NCBI GenBank assembly: GCA_024636855.1
Contig: JAGXGG010000014.1
Coordinates: 1 to 39,895 of the forward strand
Length of the DNA stretch: 39,895 nt
Source: Ignavibacteriota bacterium
GTDB lineage: Bacteria > Bacteroidota > Ignavibacteria > Kapaibacteriales > UBA2268
Direction of reading: 5' to 3'
Positions 30,009 to 39,895 of this stretch are shown here, in pieces. Positions within the stretch are counted from its first letter, which is position 1, and every line of letters begins with the position of its first letter. The position numbers and the translations under genes are program-made. The notes beneath the pieces are model-generated. The model was not told the origin of the DNA and did no database searches. It saw only the letters and a list, made by a program, of their open reading frames with translations.

Positions 30009-32645
30009 TTACTCTTTAGCCGCAACAGGAGTTTTGATTAGAACTTGTACAGTTCTATTGTAAAAACGACCTTCAGGTGTATCATTGTCGTAAAGTGGTT
30101 CATCTTCACCAACTCCACGCATTTCCAAATTAGCATAATTTCCTTTAGACTCTTTCTTGATACCAGTGTTTACAGTTTTTGCTCTGTTTACTGATAACTT
30201 AGCATTAGTTTCATAAAGTCCAACTACGTCAGTATGACCTATAATTTCTACTACTGATTCTGGTCTTACACGATTGTAAACATAATCTTTCATGATTCTA
30301 TCGTTAAGTGGCCCAGCATCATAGCTATTGAATTTGAATAGGATTAAGCTGTAGTTTTCGTACATAGTATCAGCACCTTGAGTAACAATTTTTTGTTCTG
30401 ATGATACTTGCATAACTGGTACAGTCACTGGATCAGAGATACACTCTTTACCTGCTTTTGATATTACTACTAATCGAGCTGTGAAAGCTTCTTCGTTTTT
30501 AGGGTATTTGCCTTCAGCAGATTTCCAATCCCACTCATAAAGTGATTCTGTTCTTCCAACTTCTTTCAAAGTTTTCCATTCGCCAGTACCTTTTTGAATT
30601 TCGATTCTTCTAGAAGCAATGATTGATTCGTCAATACCGTTTTCCATCTCCCATTTCATTTTTACTGGTTGTGGGAATGTTTTAGGATCTTTTTCAAATA
30701 CTGGTTTAGTTACTTCCCAATTATCACAAAGGATTTCTACACGTCTGTTTTCTGCAAGACCCATAGAGTCTCTTGGATTAGATTTGATTTCCGGAAAGTT
30801 TCTGTATTCTACTTTCATTCTATCAGCGCTGATGCCCCATACTTTGTTCAAGTAGTTGAAAACAGTTTCTGCTCTTGATTTAGATAGCTCTAGATTACCT
30901 TTCTCTTCTTCATTAGTATTGTCATTACAACCAACTAATGTTATCTTTTCATTTGGATATTGGCTCAATCTGAAACCATAGATATTTAATACGTGATAGT
31001 ATTTATCCATAGTACCACCTGGTATAGTAGTATCGGTGAAGCTAGATTTGAATGCAGATCCAGAACCAGCAAACGAAATGTATCTATCAGGTAAAGTAGA
31101 AGACCCAATATCAAAGAATACATAGTTCAATAGTGGATATAAATCCCAGCTTAAAACTTCTTCCATTACTAGACCATTGAAGCCAGCGATAGCAGGATTT
31201 TTACCTGAGTTTTTCTTAACGTAATCTGCCATATCTACATTAGCTTTTATAACAGGTTTGTTACCTAATGTGATATCTACATTGTATTCTAATGCGATTG
31301 CTCCAGCCTCACCTGCTTTGCTAGTTTGATCTGGTTTTTCGATTTTTTGAACAATTGTTCTTTTGCCGTAGCTAGGGTGCTCAGCAGTTATTTCTAGATT
31401 GATATATTTATTGTTATCTTTTGGATCACCATACCAATCATTAGTGATGATTTTCTCAAAAGTTTGATGACCTTCGTTTAACTCATCAGAGTAAAGTTCA
31501 CCAGTAATAGGGTTTCTGATAGATATACGTGCCGGGATAAATTCTCCTGTACACTCATCTCTAACTGTACCAGCAAGACTGACAGCTTTGAAGAAAGACG
31601 GTACAAATGCCATATAGACATCCAAATTACCTTGAGCTCCTCTTAAATCTTCTCTATTGGAAGAGAAATAAATAATGTCACCAGATGCAGGTAATGTTAT
31701 AAATTGCTCATCATTTTCTGTGTTTATTGGTGCACCAATATTTTCTGGTTTTGACCATGTATCAGTACTTGGGTCTAGTCTAGTAACGTAGAAATCTTGA
31801 CCACCATAGTTTGGCTTGTGTCCATCAGAAGCGAAAAATAATGTTACCCCATCTGCTGCGATGAAAGGTGATACGTCTCTACCTGGAGTATTGATTGCCG
31901 TTAAGTTTTTAGATGCACCCCACTCTTCCAAATCGAAGTCATAGTCAGAGTACCAAATATCAAAATTCGTTACATCTTCTTCTCCATCAGAGTTAGGACC
32001 TTTTCTTGTAGAAACAAAATAGATTCTACTTTGATCAGGCGCAATTGTTGGTTGAGAATCGAAGTTTTTAGAGTTAACATTTCTACCTAAGTTAACTGGA
32101 CGACCCCATTGGTCACCTTGAATTGAAGTTTTATATACATCACAGCTTCCTAGCCCATCTGGTCTATTACATGCTGTGAAATATAGAGTTTGTCTATCTG
32201 CTGCAACTGATGCTGCACCTTCATTCAGTACAGTGTTTACACCATTAAGACCCATGTTATTAGAAGGATCCAGGTTATATGGTTGATTGAAGACAGTATC
32301 CATACGGTCTGCTTTCTTCGCCACCCAGAAATCATGCGATAAATCATCGTCATCTGTTTTGATACTACCAGGCTTGTTTGATACGTAAAACAAAGTCTTA
32401 CCATCGGCCGAGATAGTCGGTGCATAATCTACACCGGAATGGTTTATAATAGGCCCGAGGTTAATAATTCTGATTTCCTTATTAGCGAGTATCCCGCCTT
32501 CTGAATCATCTTGAGCCGTAGCCTCAATTATCGCACCGTACATATATAATGAAGTACTACCTGCATCTTTTGCTGTCATATTTAGATGTGACAATGCAAA
32601 AAATAGAGCAAATAGCGATATCAGCTTAGTATATTTTCCAAACAT
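30009..32645 (-). CDS. PD40 propeller protein with two OmpA peptidoglycan-binding domains
   Basis: 878 aa. Signal peptide-like N-terminus; an AAGGGA ribosome binding site precedes the ATG. Residues about 65-350 hold PD40 repeats (YAPTISADGKTLFYVSNK, SQPTIAPDQSRIYFVSTRKG, VSPFIAADGVTLFFASD, FITLPASGDIIYFSSNRED). Next is a carboxypeptidase-regulatory-like segment (AGTVRDECTGEFIPARISI). A first OmpA-like domain (about 505-640) has NLELSKSRAETVFNYL and LAENRRVEI. A second (about 770-875) has IIGHTDVVGLYETNAKLSVN then RAKTV and FYNRTVQVLI. Most PD40-OmpA proteins carry one OmpA domain. Inferred: anchors an outer-membrane or periplasmic complex to peptidoglycan; related proteins occur around gliding/T9SS machinery (PorE-like), but that link is not shown here. 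Confidence 0.88.
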   Translation of the reverse strand: MFGKYTKLISLFALFFALSHLNMTAKDAGSTSLYMYGAIIEATAQDDSEGGILANKEIRIINLGPIINHSGVDYAPTISADGKTLFYVSNKPGSIKTDDDDLSHDFWVAKKADRMDTVFNQPYNLDPSNNMGLNGVNTVLNEGAASVAADRQTLYFTACNRPDGLGSCDVYKTSIQGDQWGRPVNLGRNVNSKNFDSQPTIAPDQSRIYFVSTRKGPNSDGEEDVTNFDIWYSDYDFDLEEWGASKNLTAINTPGRDVSPFIAADGVTLFFASDGHKPNYGGQDFYVTRLDPSTDTWSKPENIGAPINTENDEQFITLPASGDIIYFSSNREDLRGAQGNLDVYMAFVPSFFKAVSLAGTVRDECTGEFIPARISIRNPITGELYSDELNEGHQTFEKIITNDWYGDPKDNNKYINLEITAEHPSYGKRTIVQKIEKPDQTSKAGEAGAIALEYNVDITLGNKPVIKANVDMADYVKKNSGKNPAIAGFNGLVMEEVLSWDLYPLLNYVFFDIGSSTLPDRYISFAGSGSAFKSSFTDTTIPGGTMDKYYHVLNIYGFRLSQYPNEKITLVGCNDNTNEEEKGNLELSKSRAETVFNYLNKVWGISADRMKVEYRNFPEIKSNPRDSMGLAENRRVEILCDNWEVTKPVFEKDPKTFPQPVKMKWEMENGIDESIIASRRIEIQKGTGEWKTLKEVGRTESLYEWDWKSAEGKYPKNEEAFTARLVVISKAGKECISDPVTVPVMQVSSEQKIVTQGADTMYENYSLILFKFNSYDAGPLNDRIMKDYVYNRVRPESVVEIIGHTDVVGLYETNAKLSVNRAKTVNTGIKKESKGNYANLEMRGVGEDEPLYDNDTPEGRFYNRTVQVLIKTPVAAKE

Positions 32646-32855: not shown

Positions 32856-32890
32856 GAAAAAAGTAACGCAGATTTACGCTACTTTTTTGA
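32856..32890 (-). terminator. Intrinsic terminator of the bufferin-type operon
   Basis: On the reverse strand AAGTAGCG (32877-32884) pairs with CGTTACTT (32861-32868) through one G-U pair, with an 8-nt loop and a following T run. It starts about 30 nt after the DoxX stop codon, so it closes the RiPP operon. The pairing is better on this strand than on the forward strand. Confidence 0.82.
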
Positions 32891-32913: not shown

Positions 32914-33339
32914 TTATTTCTTTGCAAACAAATGGTCTAGACTTAATTTACCACCACCAAATGCTACAAGAGTCAGTAACAATAATATATAATAAAGTGG
33001 AATTTCGTATCCGTTATTACTTGCTTCAAATCCATGTCCAATATGAACGGTAAATATTGCAACTAACATTACAATTATTAATGGAAATGAAATAATTCGT
33101 GTTAATAGGCCTAAAAATATCAATACTGCTCCAATTAATTCAGTGGCAGTTGCCATATAAGCAGCAAGTGTGGGGAAAGGTATTCCTAGAGATCCGAACC
33201 ATCCGACAATACTTTCAAAATTCTCATATTTCTTCATCCCAGGTCCCCAAAAACCATAGGCAAGCACAAACCTAATAAGTAATAAGGGTACATCTTGTAT
33301 TACATCAAGTTTTTCTAAGTATTCATAAATCTTTTTCAT
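32914..33339 (-). CDS. DoxX-family membrane protein of the RiPP cluster
   Basis: 141 aa with four membrane helices (about 17-35, 58-78, 80-100, 112-128). Typical DoxX features are LLLIRFVLAYGFWGPGMKKY, the ATELIGAVLIFLGLLTR segment and the closing FGGGKLSLDHLF. DoxX-like proteins are a regular fourth member of bufferin and HvfABCD-type clusters, where their exact role is not settled; redox or metal-linked membrane functions are discussed. It starts 20 nt after the bufC stop codon and is followed by the operon terminator, so it belongs to the same transcript. Inferred: inner-membrane partner in copper-stress handling or peptide maturation. Confidence 0.85.
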   Translation of the reverse strand: MKKIYEYLEKLDVIQDVPLLLIRFVLAYGFWGPGMKKYENFESIVGWFGSLGIPFPTLAAYMATATELIGAVLIFLGLLTRIISFPLIIVMLVAIFTVHIGHGFEASNNGYEIPLYYILLLLTLVAFGGGKLSLDHLFAKK

Positions 33340-33359
33340 ATCGGCTTACTCGTAATTAG

Positions 33360-34112
33360 TTATAAAATATCAAAACCGAGTACAAACCCCTGTGCTACCA
33401 AATCATTTGCAAATGCTAATCCGTGTTGAATTGATTGGTTGTAATCAACCCCAAATGCTACAGAGCTATTCTTGATTGCAGATTCTAGAGTGGTCTGCTC
33501 ATCTACAATTGTCTGTAAGGTGAGTGCGAAAAATGCAGATAAATTGATGAACCTCACGGCTCCTGTGTCATGCTTTCTAAATATTAGTACAAAATAACTT
33601 CCTTTTTTATCTATTAGCTCGTCACCCTTAAATTTGTGAACTGGGTATTCGAAAGCTAATAGCTCATGTTCAGGAGTAACTATTAATTTGTCGTGAAGTA
33701 TATCGCCTTCCTCCTTATATATAGGTATAGCCATATCTTCCATTGTGTGTAATTCTATTTCTATCCACTCAAAGTAAAGTAACTCATCTAGATATGGTTT
33801 GTTGAATTTTTCACCATGTTTTTGAGCCACACAATATTCGTAGAATTCGAAGGGCATTTTCCAAACTAATGGTGTTTGCATTTTATGATGAGCATAGTAA
33901 TCATCGACCATAGTTAGCCATTCTTTCTCTGATAAAGATTTCTGAGCAATTGGGTATGCTGTCGCCAAAGCACCTTTTACTATATTGTACGTCAAACGTC
34001 TATAGTGGTGCAATCTGTCTTGCTTTGCCCCTTCTATAGAGACTTCCAACCCTGTTTTGCAGTATTCGGCTAGTTTAGATTGTATATTATGAGTTTCTTT
34101 TTTCAGAAGCAT
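33360..34112 (-). CDS. bufC: BufC/HvfC-like partner protein of the MNIO enzyme
   Basis: 250 aa, with the DUF2063 ('putative DNA-binding', HvfC/BufC N-terminal) family layout. The N-terminal helical half (residues 10-95) includes EGAKQDRLHHYRRLTYNIVK then GALATAYPIAQ, where the family usually shows 'RL.vYr.n...l..aL...fP', and later DDYYAHHKMQTPLVWKMP then FEFYEY. The C-terminal half, from about residue 105 (YLDELLYFEWIEIEL), has mixed strands. Known: these proteins bind the precursor leader and present it to the iron oxidase; the old DNA-binding label is not supported by recent work. The ATG lies 26 nt inside the end of bufB, so the two are translationally coupled, as expected for a stable enzyme pair. 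Confidence 0.85.
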   Translation of the reverse strand: MLLKKETHNIQSKLAEYCKTGLEVSIEGAKQDRLHHYRRLTYNIVKGALATAYPIAQKSLSEKEWLTMVDDYYAHHKMQTPLVWKMPFEFYEYCVAQKHGEKFNKPYLDELLYFEWIEIELHTMEDMAIPIYKEEGDILHDKLIVTPEHELLAFEYPVHKFKGDELIDKKGSYFVLIFRKHDTGAVRFINLSAFFALTLQTIVDEQTTLESAIKNSSVAFGVDYNQSIQHGLAFANDLVAQGFVLGFDIL

Positions 34113-34932
34113 AATCGCTCGCCCATACTTTGTCTACTATTTCTTGCAATCTTGCTATCTCTTCTTGTAGTTCTTTCATCTGAGGAATATTAAAATCTCG
34201 TTCCAGTAATATAGGTACAGGTGATATCCGCTCTATAGTCCATTCGAATAAATCGAATACTGGATCTATTATCGGTTGTCCGTGTGTATCTATAATTGTA
34301 TCAGGAGAGACTTGCTCGTGACCAGCCATGTGAATATATTTTACTTTATCTAATGGTAGATTTTCTATGAATTCTTTTGCATTATAATTGTGATTGAAGG
34401 CATTAACATATACATTATTCACATCTAATAGCAGGTTACATCCTGATTTCTCTACTATTTGACTTATAAAGCTAGCTTCATCCATCTCAGCAGCTACTGC
34501 TGTATAATATGATACATTTTCTATTGCCAAGGGTCTTTCCAAATAGTCTTGAACTATTCGGATTCTCTCCGAAACGTGGTCGATGGCATCTTGCCTAAAA
34601 GGAATAGGTAGTAAGTCATACAAATGTGCATTATCGCATTTGCTATAGCTCAGATGCTCAGAGTAAACTTCTGGTTTGAACTCATCGAAAAATTTCTTCA
34701 ATTCTTTGAGGAACTCAAAATCCAAATCCTCTGGACTACCTATAGAAAGTGACAATCCATGACACATAATAGGGTATTTCTCAGCTGCTTCGCGTAATTT
34801 TTTTCTCCAATAACCACCCATCTGCATCCAGTTCTCAGGGGCAAACTCAATAAATTTGGGTTTGTCTTCTTCTAGTGCAATTATCTGTTTTGCTATATCT
34901 CTTCGGAATCCTAATCCTACGCCGCTTATCAT
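34087..34932 (-). CDS. bufB: Multinuclear non-heme iron oxidase, DUF692/BufB/HvfB-like
   Basis: 281 aa, the usual DUF692 length. All expected TIM-barrel metal-site motifs are present: His58 (CHGLSLSIG), His93 (SEHLSYS), Glu138/Asn139 (AIENVSYY), Asp170 to His181 (LLLDVNNVYVNAFNH), His201 and His205 (IHMAGH), Asp215 to His217 (DTHGQP), and Glu244 (LLERDFNIP). Members of this family (MbnB, TglH, HvfB, BufB) use two or three irons and oxygen to remodel peptide cysteines, making oxazolone-thioamide or thiooxazole groups. A precursor with EGKCG motifs lies directly upstream and the partner bufC overlaps downstream. Inferred product: copper-binding modified cysteines. The exact modification cannot be read from sequence. 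Confidence 0.93.
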   Translation of the reverse strand: MISGVGLGFRRDIAKQIIALEEDKPKFIEFAPENWMQMGGYWRKKLREAAEKYPIMCHGLSLSIGSPEDLDFEFLKELKKFFDEFKPEVYSEHLSYSKCDNAHLYDLLPIPFRQDAIDHVSERIRIVQDYLERPLAIENVSYYTAVAAEMDEASFISQIVEKSGCNLLLDVNNVYVNAFNHNYNAKEFIENLPLDKVKYIHMAGHEQVSPDTIIDTHGQPIIDPVFDLFEWTIERISPVPILLERDFNIPQMKELQEEIARLQEIVDKVWASDYASEKRNS

Positions 34933-34950
34933 TATACTATCTTCATTTAC

Positions 34951-34986
34951 TTAATAAAAAGGGCTGAAAAATACTCTCCAGCCCTT
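34951..34986 (-). terminator. Terminator-like hairpin between precursor and enzyme genes
   Basis: On the reverse strand AAGGGCTG (34979-34986) pairs perfectly with CAGCCCTT (34959-34966) across a 12-nt loop, followed by TTTATTAA. It lies between the bufA stop and the bufB start. Partial termination here would give much precursor mRNA and less enzyme mRNA, a common arrangement for RiPP operons. Confidence 0.85.
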
Positions 34987-35010
34987 ATGTAAAAATAATT
35001 TAGTCAAAAA

Positions 35011-35379
35011 TTATTGACCGCATTTACCTTCGCCACATTTACCTTCACCACACTTGCCTTCGCCTTCTTTACCTTCTTCGCCTTCTTCACCTTCTTCGCC
35101 TTCTTCACCTTCTTCTCCTTCGCCTTCACCACATTTACCTTCACCGCACTTACCTTCACCGCATTTGCCTTCTTGTAATTTAGCTTCAGTAGCTGATAGT
35201 GTACTGATATAATCAGTAGTTGATTGATTCAACAATTCTGATCTTACGTCATTACCACTTCCCATAGCTTCATAATCGAAGATACTTACTTCCATAGCAT
35301 TAGCCGATACAGAACCTGCTGCCAATACTCCAGCTGCTAATAATGATAATTTTGCAGATGCTTTTAATTTGTTACTCAT
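35011..35379 (-). CDS. bufA: Bufferin/HvfA-like RiPP precursor with six KCG motifs
   Basis: 122 aa. A Sec signal peptide (residues 1-28, LSLLAAGVLAAGSVSANA) is followed by a polar spacer and a low-complexity core. Cysteines occur only at 73, 78, 83 and 110, 115, 120, each in a Lys-Cys-Gly motif within an EGKCG-type pentad. The two triplets are joined by an acidic linker (84-108) of Glu-Glu-Gly tripeptides with one Lys. Known: in HvfA/bufferin precursors, EGKCG cysteines are oxidised by the DUF692 enzyme to copper-binding groups, and the peptide is exported by Sec. A GGAG site lies 8 nt before the ATG. Four genes on the same strand (bufA, bufB, bufC, doxX) form the cluster. Unusual points are the long acidic linker and the mirror-like layout. 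The gene is not a random repeat: it has a good start, a signal peptide and the right neighbours. Confidence 0.9.
   Translation of the reverse strand: MSNKLKASAKLSLLAAGVLAAGSVSANAMEVSIFDYEAMGSGNDVRSELLNQSTTDYISTLSATEAKLQEGKCGEGKCGEGKCGEGEGEEGEEGEEGEEGEEGKEGEGKCGEGKCGEGKCGQ
35080..35127. repeat. Short in-frame repeat encoding the Glu-Glu-Gly linker
   Basis: Repeats of about 9 nt (on the forward strand CTTCGCCTT/CTTCACCTT alternations) encode consecutive Glu-Glu-Gly tripeptides in the middle of the RiPP precursor. Such runs can gain or lose units by slippage without changing frame. Confidence 0.75.
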
Positions 35380-36986: not shown

Positions 36987-39895
36987 TTATATCAATTTCC
37001 ATTCATTGTCTATATAAAAGAGCATTTTCAAATTAGTGTTACCTATATCAATAAATTGCCCAGAAATTTTTACCTTAATAATACCTGAAGATTTATTGAC
37101 GACAAAACATATTTGCCCATCAACACCATCAGGTAAAGTAATGTTTGATGTTTGAGCACTATCAAAGTAATAAACAGAATAACCTGCAGGTGGGTTAGTA
37201 CTATTCCCTTTCCAGATAGAAGCAAAGTTCATAGTACCATATTCACTTGAACCTGACCCACCAATTTTTAATGCTTGAGTCTTAGCGTCTGTCGAAACGA
37301 CCTGCAATCTAGCATCTGGCGCTTGTGTACCAATACCCACATTTGCTGAACTATCGGCTCCGTTCACTCCATCTATAGCTCCAAGCACGACTGTATGGTT
37401 GGCATTGACTTGGGCCAGTGCGCCTATAGCAGTTGAGTATTTAGCATTTGAATTATTTATTTTTGCTCCTGTACCAATAGCGACGTTGTTGCTATCTGCA
37501 GCAGCATTACCAATTGATATATTATTCCCAATTAGTACATTTGATTTACCATTCATACTCGTCGCTGATTTATTACCAACGACTACGTTATTACTGGCAG
37601 TAGTAGAAGATTTCATTGATTGATAGCCGACTACTACGTTGCTTGTTCCACTAGTAATACTATCACCAGCGGCATTTCCGACGAAGACACTTTGATTCTT
37701 ATTATGAAGCATAGTAGTGTCATTGATAGCATACGATTTGTCAGTAGTTATAACACCCTCTGCATCTAGAGCGAATGCTTTGCCTGTGGTATTAGTACTG
37801 TCAGCTATCGCGTGTATAGCAACTGCGTTACTACTACCACTTGATTTTGCAGTTACTGTTAATCCGGTTGCACTACCGCCGCTAGTACCACCAGTAGAAT
37901 TAATTCTTGCACCTAAAGCGTTAGTACTTGTACCTGAACTTTCATAACCCAAATCAAAGAGGTATTCATTTGCAGTAATATCAGCTGTGTTTTGTGCTGT
38001 CGTTGTACCATAATCAACAAAACCGCTACCAGCAGTCGAAGTAGTCCAAGTCATATTACCACTACCATCAGTAGTAAGGAATTGCCCATTAGTACCATAT
38101 CCATCGGGTAGAGTAAGAGTGTAGTTTCCACTAAGAGCAGAGACTGATCTAAGTGCTATGTAATTAGAGTTATCAGAGTCGTATAGTTTTAGTGAATCTC
38201 TACTTTGAATACTTAGACCTTCTGCAAAAGTCTTTTCTCCACCGAAAGTTTGAGAGTTACTACTAACTATTCCAGATTGAGTACTCCCAGCAAAATTGAT
38301 ATTTAGTGGATTGTTTGAAGTTCCATATCCCGTAAAAGGACTACCACTAGCAGTAACAATAGAGTCAAATTTGCTATTGAATTTATTCCAATCAGTAGAG
38401 TTCAGGTAACCATCTGTAGTTGTACTTGCCGAATCCATTCTTAATCTATCACCAGTTGTTCCATCTCCACGTACTGGGAGATTCGTATATATAGTAGATG
38501 ATGAATTGCTGTTGAAAGTCGTCCAATCCTCTTTGGATAAGTAACCATCTGTAGACGCATCGGCTTTATCCATTCTTACTTTGTTTCCACTCGTACCATT
38601 CCCTTTAACGGGTAAATCGGTAATTACATTCATAGCTGAAAGCTTGTTGTTGAAAGTGTTCCAGTCAGTAGAGTCTAGATAACCGCTAGTACTTGAATTG
38701 GCTTTGTCAATTCTTAGCCTATCACCAGATTTCCCATTCCCTTTCAGAATTCCACCAGTAGTAAAAACAGAATCCATTTTACTATAGAATTTTATATAGT
38801 CAGATGTAGCCAGATAACCTGAGTCTAAAAACCCTGCTTTTTTGATAGTAAGCGGATTACCCGAAGTTCCATTGCCAATAATGGGTGCAGTAGCACTTAC
38901 AGTAGATAATTTGCTGCTGAATGTCGTGTAATCGCCTGAGCTCAGATAACCGTGATTGCCTGTAGTTGCTTTTAGTAAAGTTATAGCGCTTGTAATACCA
39001 TTACCTGTTAAAGGAGCAGCAACTTTTACAGAATCTATGGAAGTATTATTATTGAATTTAGTCCAATCTGCAGCTGAAAGATAACCTGCTGTTGTACCAT
39101 TCGCTTGAGAAATTGTAAGAGGGTCACCACTCACACCTGTACCGCTTAGGGGAGTACCACTAGCCACAGTAACTGCAGATAGCTTATTGTTAAATGTCGT
39201 CCAATTAGATGCCGTTAAATACCCATCTGTCGTAGTGCTCGCCTTAGCTATTGTCAATGAATCACTGCTAGTACCACTACCAGACAATGGGATATTATTA
39301 GCAACTACTACAGTTGATAGTTTGTTATTGAATGTCTTCCAGTCAGTTGAGTCTAAATAGCCGTTAGTTGAACTACTTGCCTTAGAAATAGAAATACTAT
39401 TCGTAATACCATTTCCAGTCAAAGGAGTAGCAACTTTTACAGAATCTATGGAAGTATTATTATTGAATTTATTCCAATCTGTAGCCGAAAGATATCCGTC
39501 AGTAGTACCACTTGCTTGAGAGATAGTCAGTGAATCCCCAATGACACCAGAACCGCTAATCGGTATGCCACTAGCCACAGTTACTGCAGAAAGTTTATTG
39601 TTAAATGTCGTCCAATTGGAAGCCGTTAAATATCCGTCTGTCGTAGTACTCGCCTTAGCTATAGTCAATGAATCGCTACTAGTACCACTACCAGACAATG
39701 GGATATTATTAGCAACTACTACAGTTGATAGTTTGTTATTGAAAGTCTTGAAGTCAGCCGAATCTAAGTAACCATTAGCCGAACTACTTGCTTTAGAAAT
39801 AGAAATATTATTAGTAATACCATTTCCAGTCAAAGGAGTAGCAACTTTTACAGAATCTATGGAAGTATTATTATTGAATTTATTCCAATCTGTAG
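36987..39895 (-). CDS. Repeat-built surface or tail-fibre-like protein (5' end outside window)
   Basis: Partial: the frame is open to the right edge, and the repeat pattern continues past the first possible start (a TTG at 39833). N-terminal side: eleven complete units of 44-46 residues, each starting GYL and containing 'DW.TFNNK' and 'P.SGSGT..D.L.I..A'. Next come FGGEKTF and a spacer; then segments resembling YadA-type Hep/Hag head repeats (SNVVVGYQSM, NNVVVGNKSA, SNVLIGNNI, NNVAIGTGAK, YSTAIGALAQ); then NVGIGTQAPDARLQV, familiar from fibre proteins of Bacteroidota and phages; and finally a small C-terminal domain ending in FYIDNEWKLI. No S74 intramolecular chaperone or T9SS domain is visible at the C-terminus. 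Inferred: trimeric fibre. Its export route is unknown because the N-terminus is missing. Confidence 0.8.
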   Translation of the reverse strand, partial: TDWNKFNNNTSIDSVKVATPLTGNGITNNISISKASSSANGYLDSADFKTFNNKLSTVVVANNIPLSGSGTSSDSLTIAKASTTTDGYLTASNWTTFNNKLSAVTVASGIPISGSGVIGDSLTISQASGTTDGYLSATDWNKFNNNTSIDSVKVATPLTGNGITNSISISKASSSTNGYLDSTDWKTFNNKLSTVVVANNIPLSGSGTSSDSLTIAKASTTTDGYLTASNWTTFNNKLSAVTVASGTPLSGTGVSGDPLTISQANGTTAGYLSAADWTKFNNNTSIDSVKVAAPLTGNGITSAITLLKATTGNHGYLSSGDYTTFSSKLSTVSATAPIIGNGTSGNPLTIKKAGFLDSGYLATSDYIKFYSKMDSVFTTGGILKGNGKSGDRLRIDKANSSTSGYLDSTDWNTFNNKLSAMNVITDLPVKGNGTSGNKVRMDKADASTDGYLSKEDWTTFNSNSSSTIYTNLPVRGDGTTGDRLRMDSASTTTDGYLNSTDWNKFNSKFDSIVTASGSPFTGYGTSNNPLNINFAGSTQSGIVSSNSQTFGGEKTFAEGLSIQSRDSLKLYDSDNSNYIALRSVSALSGNYTLTLPDGYGTNGQFLTTDGSGNMTWTTSTAGSGFVDYGTTTAQNTADITANEYLFDLGYESSGTSTNALGARINSTGGTSGGSATGLTVTAKSSGSSNAVAIHAIADSTNTTGKAFALDAEGVITTDKSYAINDTTMLHNKNQSVFVGNAAGDSITSGTSNVVVGYQSMKSSTTASNNVVVGNKSATSMNGKSNVLIGNNISIGNAAADSNNVAIGTGAKINNSNAKYSTAIGALAQVNANHTVVLGAIDGVNGADSSANVGIGTQAPDARLQVVSTDAKTQALKIGGSGSSEYGTMNFASIWKGNSTNPPAGYSVYYFDSAQTSNITLPDGVDGQICFVVNKSSGIIKVKISGQFIDIGNTNLKMLFYIDNEWKLI
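38274..39895 (-). repeat. Tandem GYL repeats with a 411-bp higher-order period
   Basis: Eleven complete units (each 132-138 nt) start at 39773, 39635, 39497, 39362, 39224, 39086, 38951, 38819, 38684, 38546 and 38411 on the reverse strand, with a partial unit at the edge. The first six form two copies of a three-unit block of 46+46+45 residues (39773-39363 and 39362-38952). The landmark AAAGGAG(T/C)AGCAAC recurs at 39010, 39421 and 39832, exactly 411 nt apart. Units toward the C-terminus are more diverged. Confidence 0.92.

Follow-up and report, generated by a model that had tools for sequence, protein, structure and literature searches.

The 39,895-nucleotide (nt) stretch of an Ignavibacteriota bacterium genome analysed here (the window) contains a cluster of four genes and two hairpins. 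The cluster lies on the minus strand, running from 35379 to 32857, and encodes a cysteine-repeat precursor peptide, an HvfB-like oxidase, an HvfC-like partner protein and an HvfX-like membrane protein (Table 1). By analogy with studied relatives, the four genes very probably make an exported copper-binding peptide. The set is best read as a precursor–HvfB–HvfC–HvfX cluster for a copper-sequestering ribosomally synthesized and post-translationally modified peptide (RiPP) of the EGKCG (captophorin) class, a reading to which we give a probability of about 0.85. This figure covers the identity of the cluster and its proposed function; two proposals made below, on a leader motif and on the hairpin inside the cluster, are excluded from it.

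Table 1. Features of the RiPP cluster in the window
Feature	Position	Strand	Remarks
HvfA-like precursor	35011..35379	-	122 aa open reading frame (ORF), six EGKCG motifs
Sec-type signal peptide region	35296..35379	-	residues 1-28; end estimated by eye from translation
Leader motif YEAMGSGNDVRSELL	35230..35274	-	residues 36-50; proposed HvfC docking site, function inferred
EGKCG run 1 (three motifs)	35128..35172	-	residues 70-84
Acidic Glu/Gly linker	35062..35127	-	residues 85-106
EGKCG run 2 (three motifs)	35017..35061	-	residues 107-121
Terminator-like hairpin and U-tract, precursor-MNIO gap	34959..34986	-	proposed partial terminator, precursor mRNA 3' end
HvfB-like MNIO (DUF692) oxidase	34087..34932	-	281 aa; PF05114, NF003818, 3bww
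HvfC-like DUF2063 + RRE partner	33360..34112	-	250 aa; PF09836, PF22106; 26 nt overlap with hvfB
HvfX-like DoxX membrane protein	32914..33339	-	141 aa; NF050144, PF07681
Terminator-like hairpin closing the cluster	32857..32888	-	hairpin scan

The precursor contains exactly six EGKCG motifs, arranged as two runs of three. Its start is of the Sec type as read by eye, with positively charged residues, a hydrophobic stretch and the sequence ANA before the likely cleavage site. The predicted fold is mostly disordered, with a predicted local distance difference test score (pLDDT) of 51, and has a single helix, spanning residues 42–57, over the leader motif. A Pfam search of the precursor gave no match.

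The oxidase matches PF05114 with 346.7 bits in the Pfam profile search and the NCBIfam HvfB model NF003818 with 385.1 bits, above the cut-off of 360. It aligns with the solved structure 3bww (E = 6.5e-71) and keeps the blocks HGLSLS, HLS, EN-SYY, LDVNN, YIH-AGH, DTHG and LLERDFN of that structure. The metal-site blocks are invariant across the window protein and four relatives, and their residues include those that we take to be the iron ligands. Ligand roles are also drawn from an account of the Haemophilus influenzae system (PMC13419390). The partner protein exceeds the cut-offs for PF09836 and for PF22106, the NGO1945 C-terminal domain. Its AlphaFold2 model has a mean pLDDT of 93.4 and finds its best fold match in 3dee (E = 2.6e-7). 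The TglHI complex ranks second through its chain A (the partner TglI, by exclusion), and chains of MbnABC match more weakly (E = 0.04); 3dee, TglHI and MbnABC all come from MNIO systems. The membrane protein passes the HvfX model NF050144 (129.8 bits; cut-off, 80) and also matches PF07681.

A preliminary description of this DNA, based on its letters and translations, had listed a Sec-signal precursor with six KCG motifs, a DUF692 oxidase with metal-site motifs, a DUF2063-type partner overlapping the oxidase by 26 nt, a DoxX protein and a terminator closing the set. Each of these elements is borne out by the ORF, profile matches, structural alignment, coordinates or hairpin scan reported here. 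The DUF692 profile search that it proposed as a check has now been run and gave the strong match described above, with the metal-site blocks present.

The cluster carries the features of the captophorin/EGKCG class: an HvfB-family MNIO with the iron-site residues, a PME1 partner combining DUF2063 with a RiPP recognition element (RRE), and a precursor in which a Sec signal, recognized by eye, precedes EGKCG repeats. Because the precursor falls far below the HvfA equivalog cut-off, it is filed in this class and not as HvfA itself. From what is described for relatives, HvfC would hold the precursor as the iron oxidase HvfB converts the Cys residue in every EGKCG motif to a 5-thiooxazole, with a loss of 4 Da per site. 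Sec would export the peptide, whose modified residues would bind Cu(I) outside the cytoplasm. The 5-thiooxazole is the modification favoured in print for the EGKCG class (PMC13097082), and the view that the class binds or protects against copper is taken from the same paper and from PMC12452194; for the window peptide, we infer both the thiooxazole chemistry and the copper handling from these relatives. Two further steps are suggested by the present analysis. HvfC may read a leader motif of the LGSGxxVR type just after the signal peptide, and the hairpin between the precursor and oxidase genes may end most transcripts, which would leave the peptide in excess over the enzymes.

Several described systems resemble that of the window. 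The HvfABC/oxazolin system of H. influenzae likewise has a Sec signal peptide, six modifiable Cys residues, an HvfB MNIO and an HvfC (PMC13419390), its HvfA contains EGKCG repeats (PMC13097082), and the window DoxX protein belongs to the NCBIfam HvfX family. The two systems differ in their leader and linker sequences and in host phylum, as well as in the precursor score noted above. The captophorins fontiphorin (fon) and gonophorin (ngo) share the precursor–MNIO–PME1 set, and the window MNIO has the Arg pair and the ERDF block where EGKCG selectivity and catalysis are placed, as judged by motif match and not by alignment with FonB (PMC13097082). Unlike the window cluster, fon is described as precursor, MNIO and PME1 only (PMC13097082), and the Neisseria precursor examined lacks the leader motif of the window. 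Bulbicupramide (mmr) of Microbulbifer is also built from EGKCG units and served by an MNIO and a DUF2063/RRE partner, with a conserved leader and a core that varies within the genus, as in the branch of the window; its Lys-flanked cassettes and Pseudomonadota host set it apart (PMC12538549). The Buf_EGKCG/oxazolin group of about 2,000 proteins combines a signal peptide and repeated EGKCG with RiPP, MNIO, DUF2063 and DoxX genes, as does the window, but is reported mostly from Pseudomonadota, and the available part of that survey mentions neither the leader motif nor the hairpin (PMC12452194).

HvfB is present in all four genomes of the genus, and the precursor repeat model NF050137 matches 5 of 54 genomes of the family, namely the four genus members and one other; the cluster is therefore more than a chance arrangement. 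In the three sister species, HvfB is 91–97% identical and the precursor 78–93% identical to the window proteins, and HvfC is 77–87% identical in the two that have a whole gene. In a sample of 395 genomes of the phylum, the HvfB model finds matches in 26, of which 7 score above the cut-off. The best 80 of 115 HvfB relatives in named genomes comprise 73 from Bacteroidota, two from Verrucomicrobia, one from Bdellovibrionales, two from Ignavibacteriae and two labelled 'bacterium' only. Clusters of this type are common in Bacteroidota and the wider group. The preliminary suggestion that this lineage would widen the picture is weak, because 73 of these best 80 loci carry Bacteroidota names. A viral-contig scan for relatives in Pseudomonadota found none. 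Every one of 87 distinct MNIO loci has an hvfC gene; a Cys-repeat precursor lies directly upstream in 84, and an hvfX-like gene occurs within the stretch examined in 59. The cluster is real and conserved; its kind is known, its lineage has been little studied, and its own novelty is modest. The four-species clade is firm in the HvfB tree, with a support of 99. With seven long or outgroup rows removed, the family grouping has a support of 59 and the class grouping a p-value of 0.384 in the approximately unbiased test, and the tree does not settle whether the gene descended within the lineage or was transferred horizontally into the genus.

Some results count against the class assignment. The precursor scores 19.4 bits with NF050137 in a single-protein search, narrowly missing the cut-off of 19.5; in the genome search it reaches 20.8 bits and passes. 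It scores 21.6 bits with the HvfA equivalog NF050188, far under the cut-off of 95, and the partner scores 137.3 bits with the HvfC equivalog NF050145, just under the cut-off of 142. The profiled flanking genes encode a CoA-binding protein, an MscS channel and a PD40/OmpA protein, none of them a copper gene. Two Cu-ATPase-type pumps exceed their cut-off on other contigs of the host genome, but they are uninformative because 13 of 14 control genomes contain passing matches to this model as well. Across the branch of relatives, NF050188 is matched at an E-value of 0.01 or better by 29 of 34 precursors, and NF050145 at 0.001 or better by all 36 aligned partners. A promoter scan gave 12 matches, compared with 16.7 in shuffles.

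The same enzyme classes serve bufferins (DUF2282, Buf2), which combine an MNIO, a PME1 partner and DoxX in exported systems for copper, and relatives that are induced by gold or fused to MerC have been published (PMC12452194). The window could accordingly hold a true bufferin cluster, or make a peptide for another metal or stress. This is improbable: bufferin precursors belong to other families (PMC12452194), the window precursor has EGKCG motifs, and the window MNIO scores 385 bits with the HvfB model and 289.1 bits with the BufB model NF050167, where it fails the cut-off of 310. With no match to the DUF2282 model PF10048 in the host genome, the bufferin half of the preliminary label 'bufferin/HvfA-type' was rejected; the other half stands as the HvfA/captophorin EGKCG class, on the profiles, 3bww and 3dee. 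Searches with PF05114 and NF050137 found no second MNIO or KCG precursor in the host genome, which has one MNIO. A cluster in decay would account for the change of some KCG repeats to TCG, ACG or GG in sister species. It would also fit the state of hvfX: none of the three other genus members has an HvfX over cut-off (the G001 contig ends inside hvfC), and in G003 a 383-column alignment of 75.7% identity (L014:6469-6947) starts in the last ~110 bases of the window hvfX, runs downstream and holds no frame, which suggests that hvfX was lost there and left a relic-like stretch. Decay of the cluster as a whole is nevertheless very unlikely, since HvfB and HvfC are well kept in the sister species with open frames and the six motifs of the window are intact.

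The EGKCG clusters of Bacteroidota and Ignavibacteriota may further form a distinct subtype, a proposal as apt to fail as to hold. It joins two elements. An HvfC-recognition motif after the signal peptide (Y-x-x-LG[ST]G-x-E-V-R-x-x-L type) would stay on the exported peptide and let the core drift. A hairpin, in forms unrelated in sequence across Bacteroidota, Ignavibacteriota and several Pseudomonadota clusters, would be a widespread expression-ratio device of MNIO–PME1 clusters. No report of either element was found for the family in the main texts searched, which are mostly those of openly accessible papers. Four of the 80 HvfB loci repeat other contigs (L047, L048, L049 and L090) and were left out of the precursor and hairpin counts. 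The 88 distinct places give 77 KCG precursors by pattern and 8 with drifted cores by eye, 85 in all. Three places yielded no precursor: L061 and L073 are cut by contig ends, and L015, of genome G006, has its precursor on another contig, where it is counted among the 77.

The leader pattern [LM]G[STN][GASER]xx[VLI]R is found in 82 of the 85 precursors, compared with 0.01 expected in all from shuffled residues, and 70 of the 82 have a Tyr three residues ahead of it. The exceptions are L108, which is cut by a contig end, L112, which reads LGEASDVR, and L130. Besides Met1, just two columns are invariant in an alignment of 34 precursors, G40 and R46 of the motif; the best Cys columns come close, at 90% or more. 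The motif is retained in Chitinophaga precursors with KCS, KCA or similar cores, and in Verrucomicrobia-labelled precursors with NCGQSSCG cores. With this motif and a well-modelled HvfC partner, recognition in the branch becomes testable with a few point changes.

The cores show several further variations. The Verrucomicrobia-labelled precursors, L106:3555-3980 and L118:3546-3980, contain no KCG, are accompanied by hvfB, hvfC and hvfX, and possibly represent a new core type. The precursor at L098:3503-3916 has an odd Cys block (SDPNCKNKNCKEG) between its KCG runs. Among the four members of the genus the core carries a net charge of −11 to −16; for 73 other precursors, 6 of them negative, the median is +7. 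An acidic linker unique to the genus was considered and rejected, as the unrelated L113 (−12) and L119 (−21) are as acidic or more.

The second element, the hairpin between the precursor and oxidase genes, does not appear in the preliminary description and is stronger than the hairpin that closes the cluster. It has a z-score of −3.91, with none of 200 shuffles as stable, and its stem lies 26 nt from the hvfB start codon. A hairpin occupies the same position in all three sister species, in one of them with an extra G–C pair. Gaps were called terminator-like if they formed at least five pairs, reached −9 kcal/mol or better and were followed by a T run. By this rule 45 of 75 precursor–MNIO gaps are terminator-like (one 5-nt gap left out), compared with 1.3 expected from shuffles and none in equal lengths upstream of the precursor. 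In a comparison based on crude ORF calls, which yield only 56 precursor–oxidase gaps, 31 of the 56 are terminator-like, as are 21 of 112 other codirectional gaps of the same loci (Fisher, 2.6e-6) and 9 of 60 such gaps of 50–120 nt (Fisher, 5.3e-6). None of 12 hvfC–hvfX gaps is terminator-like. When no T run is required and gaps under 40 nt are left out, the fold z-score is below −2 in 72 of 80 gaps and in 9 of 79 upstream controls.

The stem also appears to be maintained through sequence change. In 16 of 19 Chitinophaga gaps (L052, L053 and L059 left out), changes on both sides occur at 6 of 11 stem pairs, in 20 cells. The covariation score is 0.406, compared with 0.164 in shuffles (0 of 500 reach the observed value) and at most 0.154 when the stem is slid. 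In G006, a draft of ~160 contigs, hvfBC and the precursor gene are on separate contigs, yet a hairpin and U-tract still come after the precursor gene, with a z-score of −4.74. This precursor, L127:5764-6183, adjoins PD40/OmpA-like and ATP synthase subunit-like genes as judged by eye. Of 14 Pseudomonadota loci, 12 supplied a precursor for the motif check; eight gaps were folded, the genes overlap in three clusters, and the Neisseria gap was left out of the fold check. The z-score is below −2 in six of the eight folded gaps.

Docking of HvfC on the leader motif is an evenly balanced proposal, suggested by motif conservation, and several observations tell against it. The sequences in which the pattern was counted also served to define it. 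All loci were collected through one MNIO subclade, which favours similarity among the precursors. The motif is found in none of the 12 Pseudomonadota precursors, of which only three are of the KCG-repeat type, and its restriction to the branch is therefore not firmly shown. HvfA of H. influenzae is modified far less well when it lacks the signal peptide than at full length (PMC13419390), and single Ala substitutions ahead of the core were tolerated in FonA (PMC13097082); the signal peptide may thus be the main leader. According to PMC12452194, precursor recognition is described for MNIO substrates that lack a signal peptide; for those carrying one, there were only preliminary data on a single bufferin. 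The motif might instead serve the mature peptide, in export, folding or anchoring, with HvfC reading the Sec signal peptide. The HvfA result fits such an arrangement, as does the position of the motif after the signal peptide, where it would remain on the mature product. This alternative is a serious one but seems the less probable, as the motif persists across loci with Bacteroidota, Verrucomicrobia, Bdellovibrionales and Ignavibacteriae labels, and with a changed core, as an enzyme-recognition leader would. Signal peptide and motif may both contribute to recognition. A later study, to go by its title, reportedly makes the signal peptide the leader.

For the hairpin, partial termination that leaves more precursor mRNA than enzyme mRNA is the moderately favoured reading of the folding results. 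Partial terminators after precursor genes are known in other RiPP operons, and such a hairpin would offer a simple route to much more sequestering peptide than enzyme. The counts are not uniformly favourable. The terminator rule fails in 30 of the 75 gaps, the reverse direction also scores in 17 of 75, and only 17 of 84 loci have a terminator in the 150 nt that follow the last recognized cluster gene. The z-score threshold of −2 is missed by 8 of the 80 gaps, including that of sister species G002 (L013, −1.7), and by 2 of the 8 folded Pseudomonadota gaps; in 3 of the 12 Pseudomonadota clusters the genes overlap and leave no gap. The Chitinophaga stem was drawn from the sequences under test and is therefore favoured over its slid versions, and related sequences can exceed shuffles in a covariation test. 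In the main rival reading, the hairpin stabilises the 3' end of the precursor mRNA or marks a site where it is processed, and a single transcript is later cut and unequally degraded. That 72 of 80 gaps have z-scores below −2 and only 45 of 75 are terminator-like would fit this, as would the strong hairpins lacking a clear U-tract in the Moraxella and Acinetobacter plasmid clusters. Stabilisation or processing is nonetheless the less likely reading, given the U-tracts in the window, in the three sister species and after the separate G006 precursor gene. The 26 nt between stem and hvfB start leave little room for a second promoter, which fits readthrough.

The Moraxella (L140) and Acinetobacter (L141) plasmids carry KCG-repeat precursor clusters with a sigma-70 gene downstream, and in L140 an IS4 transposase lies between the MNIO and partner genes. 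In the window, the large PD40/OmpA gene (30009-32645) lies downstream of the cluster on the same strand, as a PD40/OmpA gene does in L013 and L014. A long ORF of similar repeats (GYLDSTDWKTFNNKLS type) occupies 36987-39833 of the window on the minus strand. At a guess by eye, it perhaps encodes a tail-fibre-like or adhesin-like protein, and an ORF resembling it is present at L014:10561-13146.

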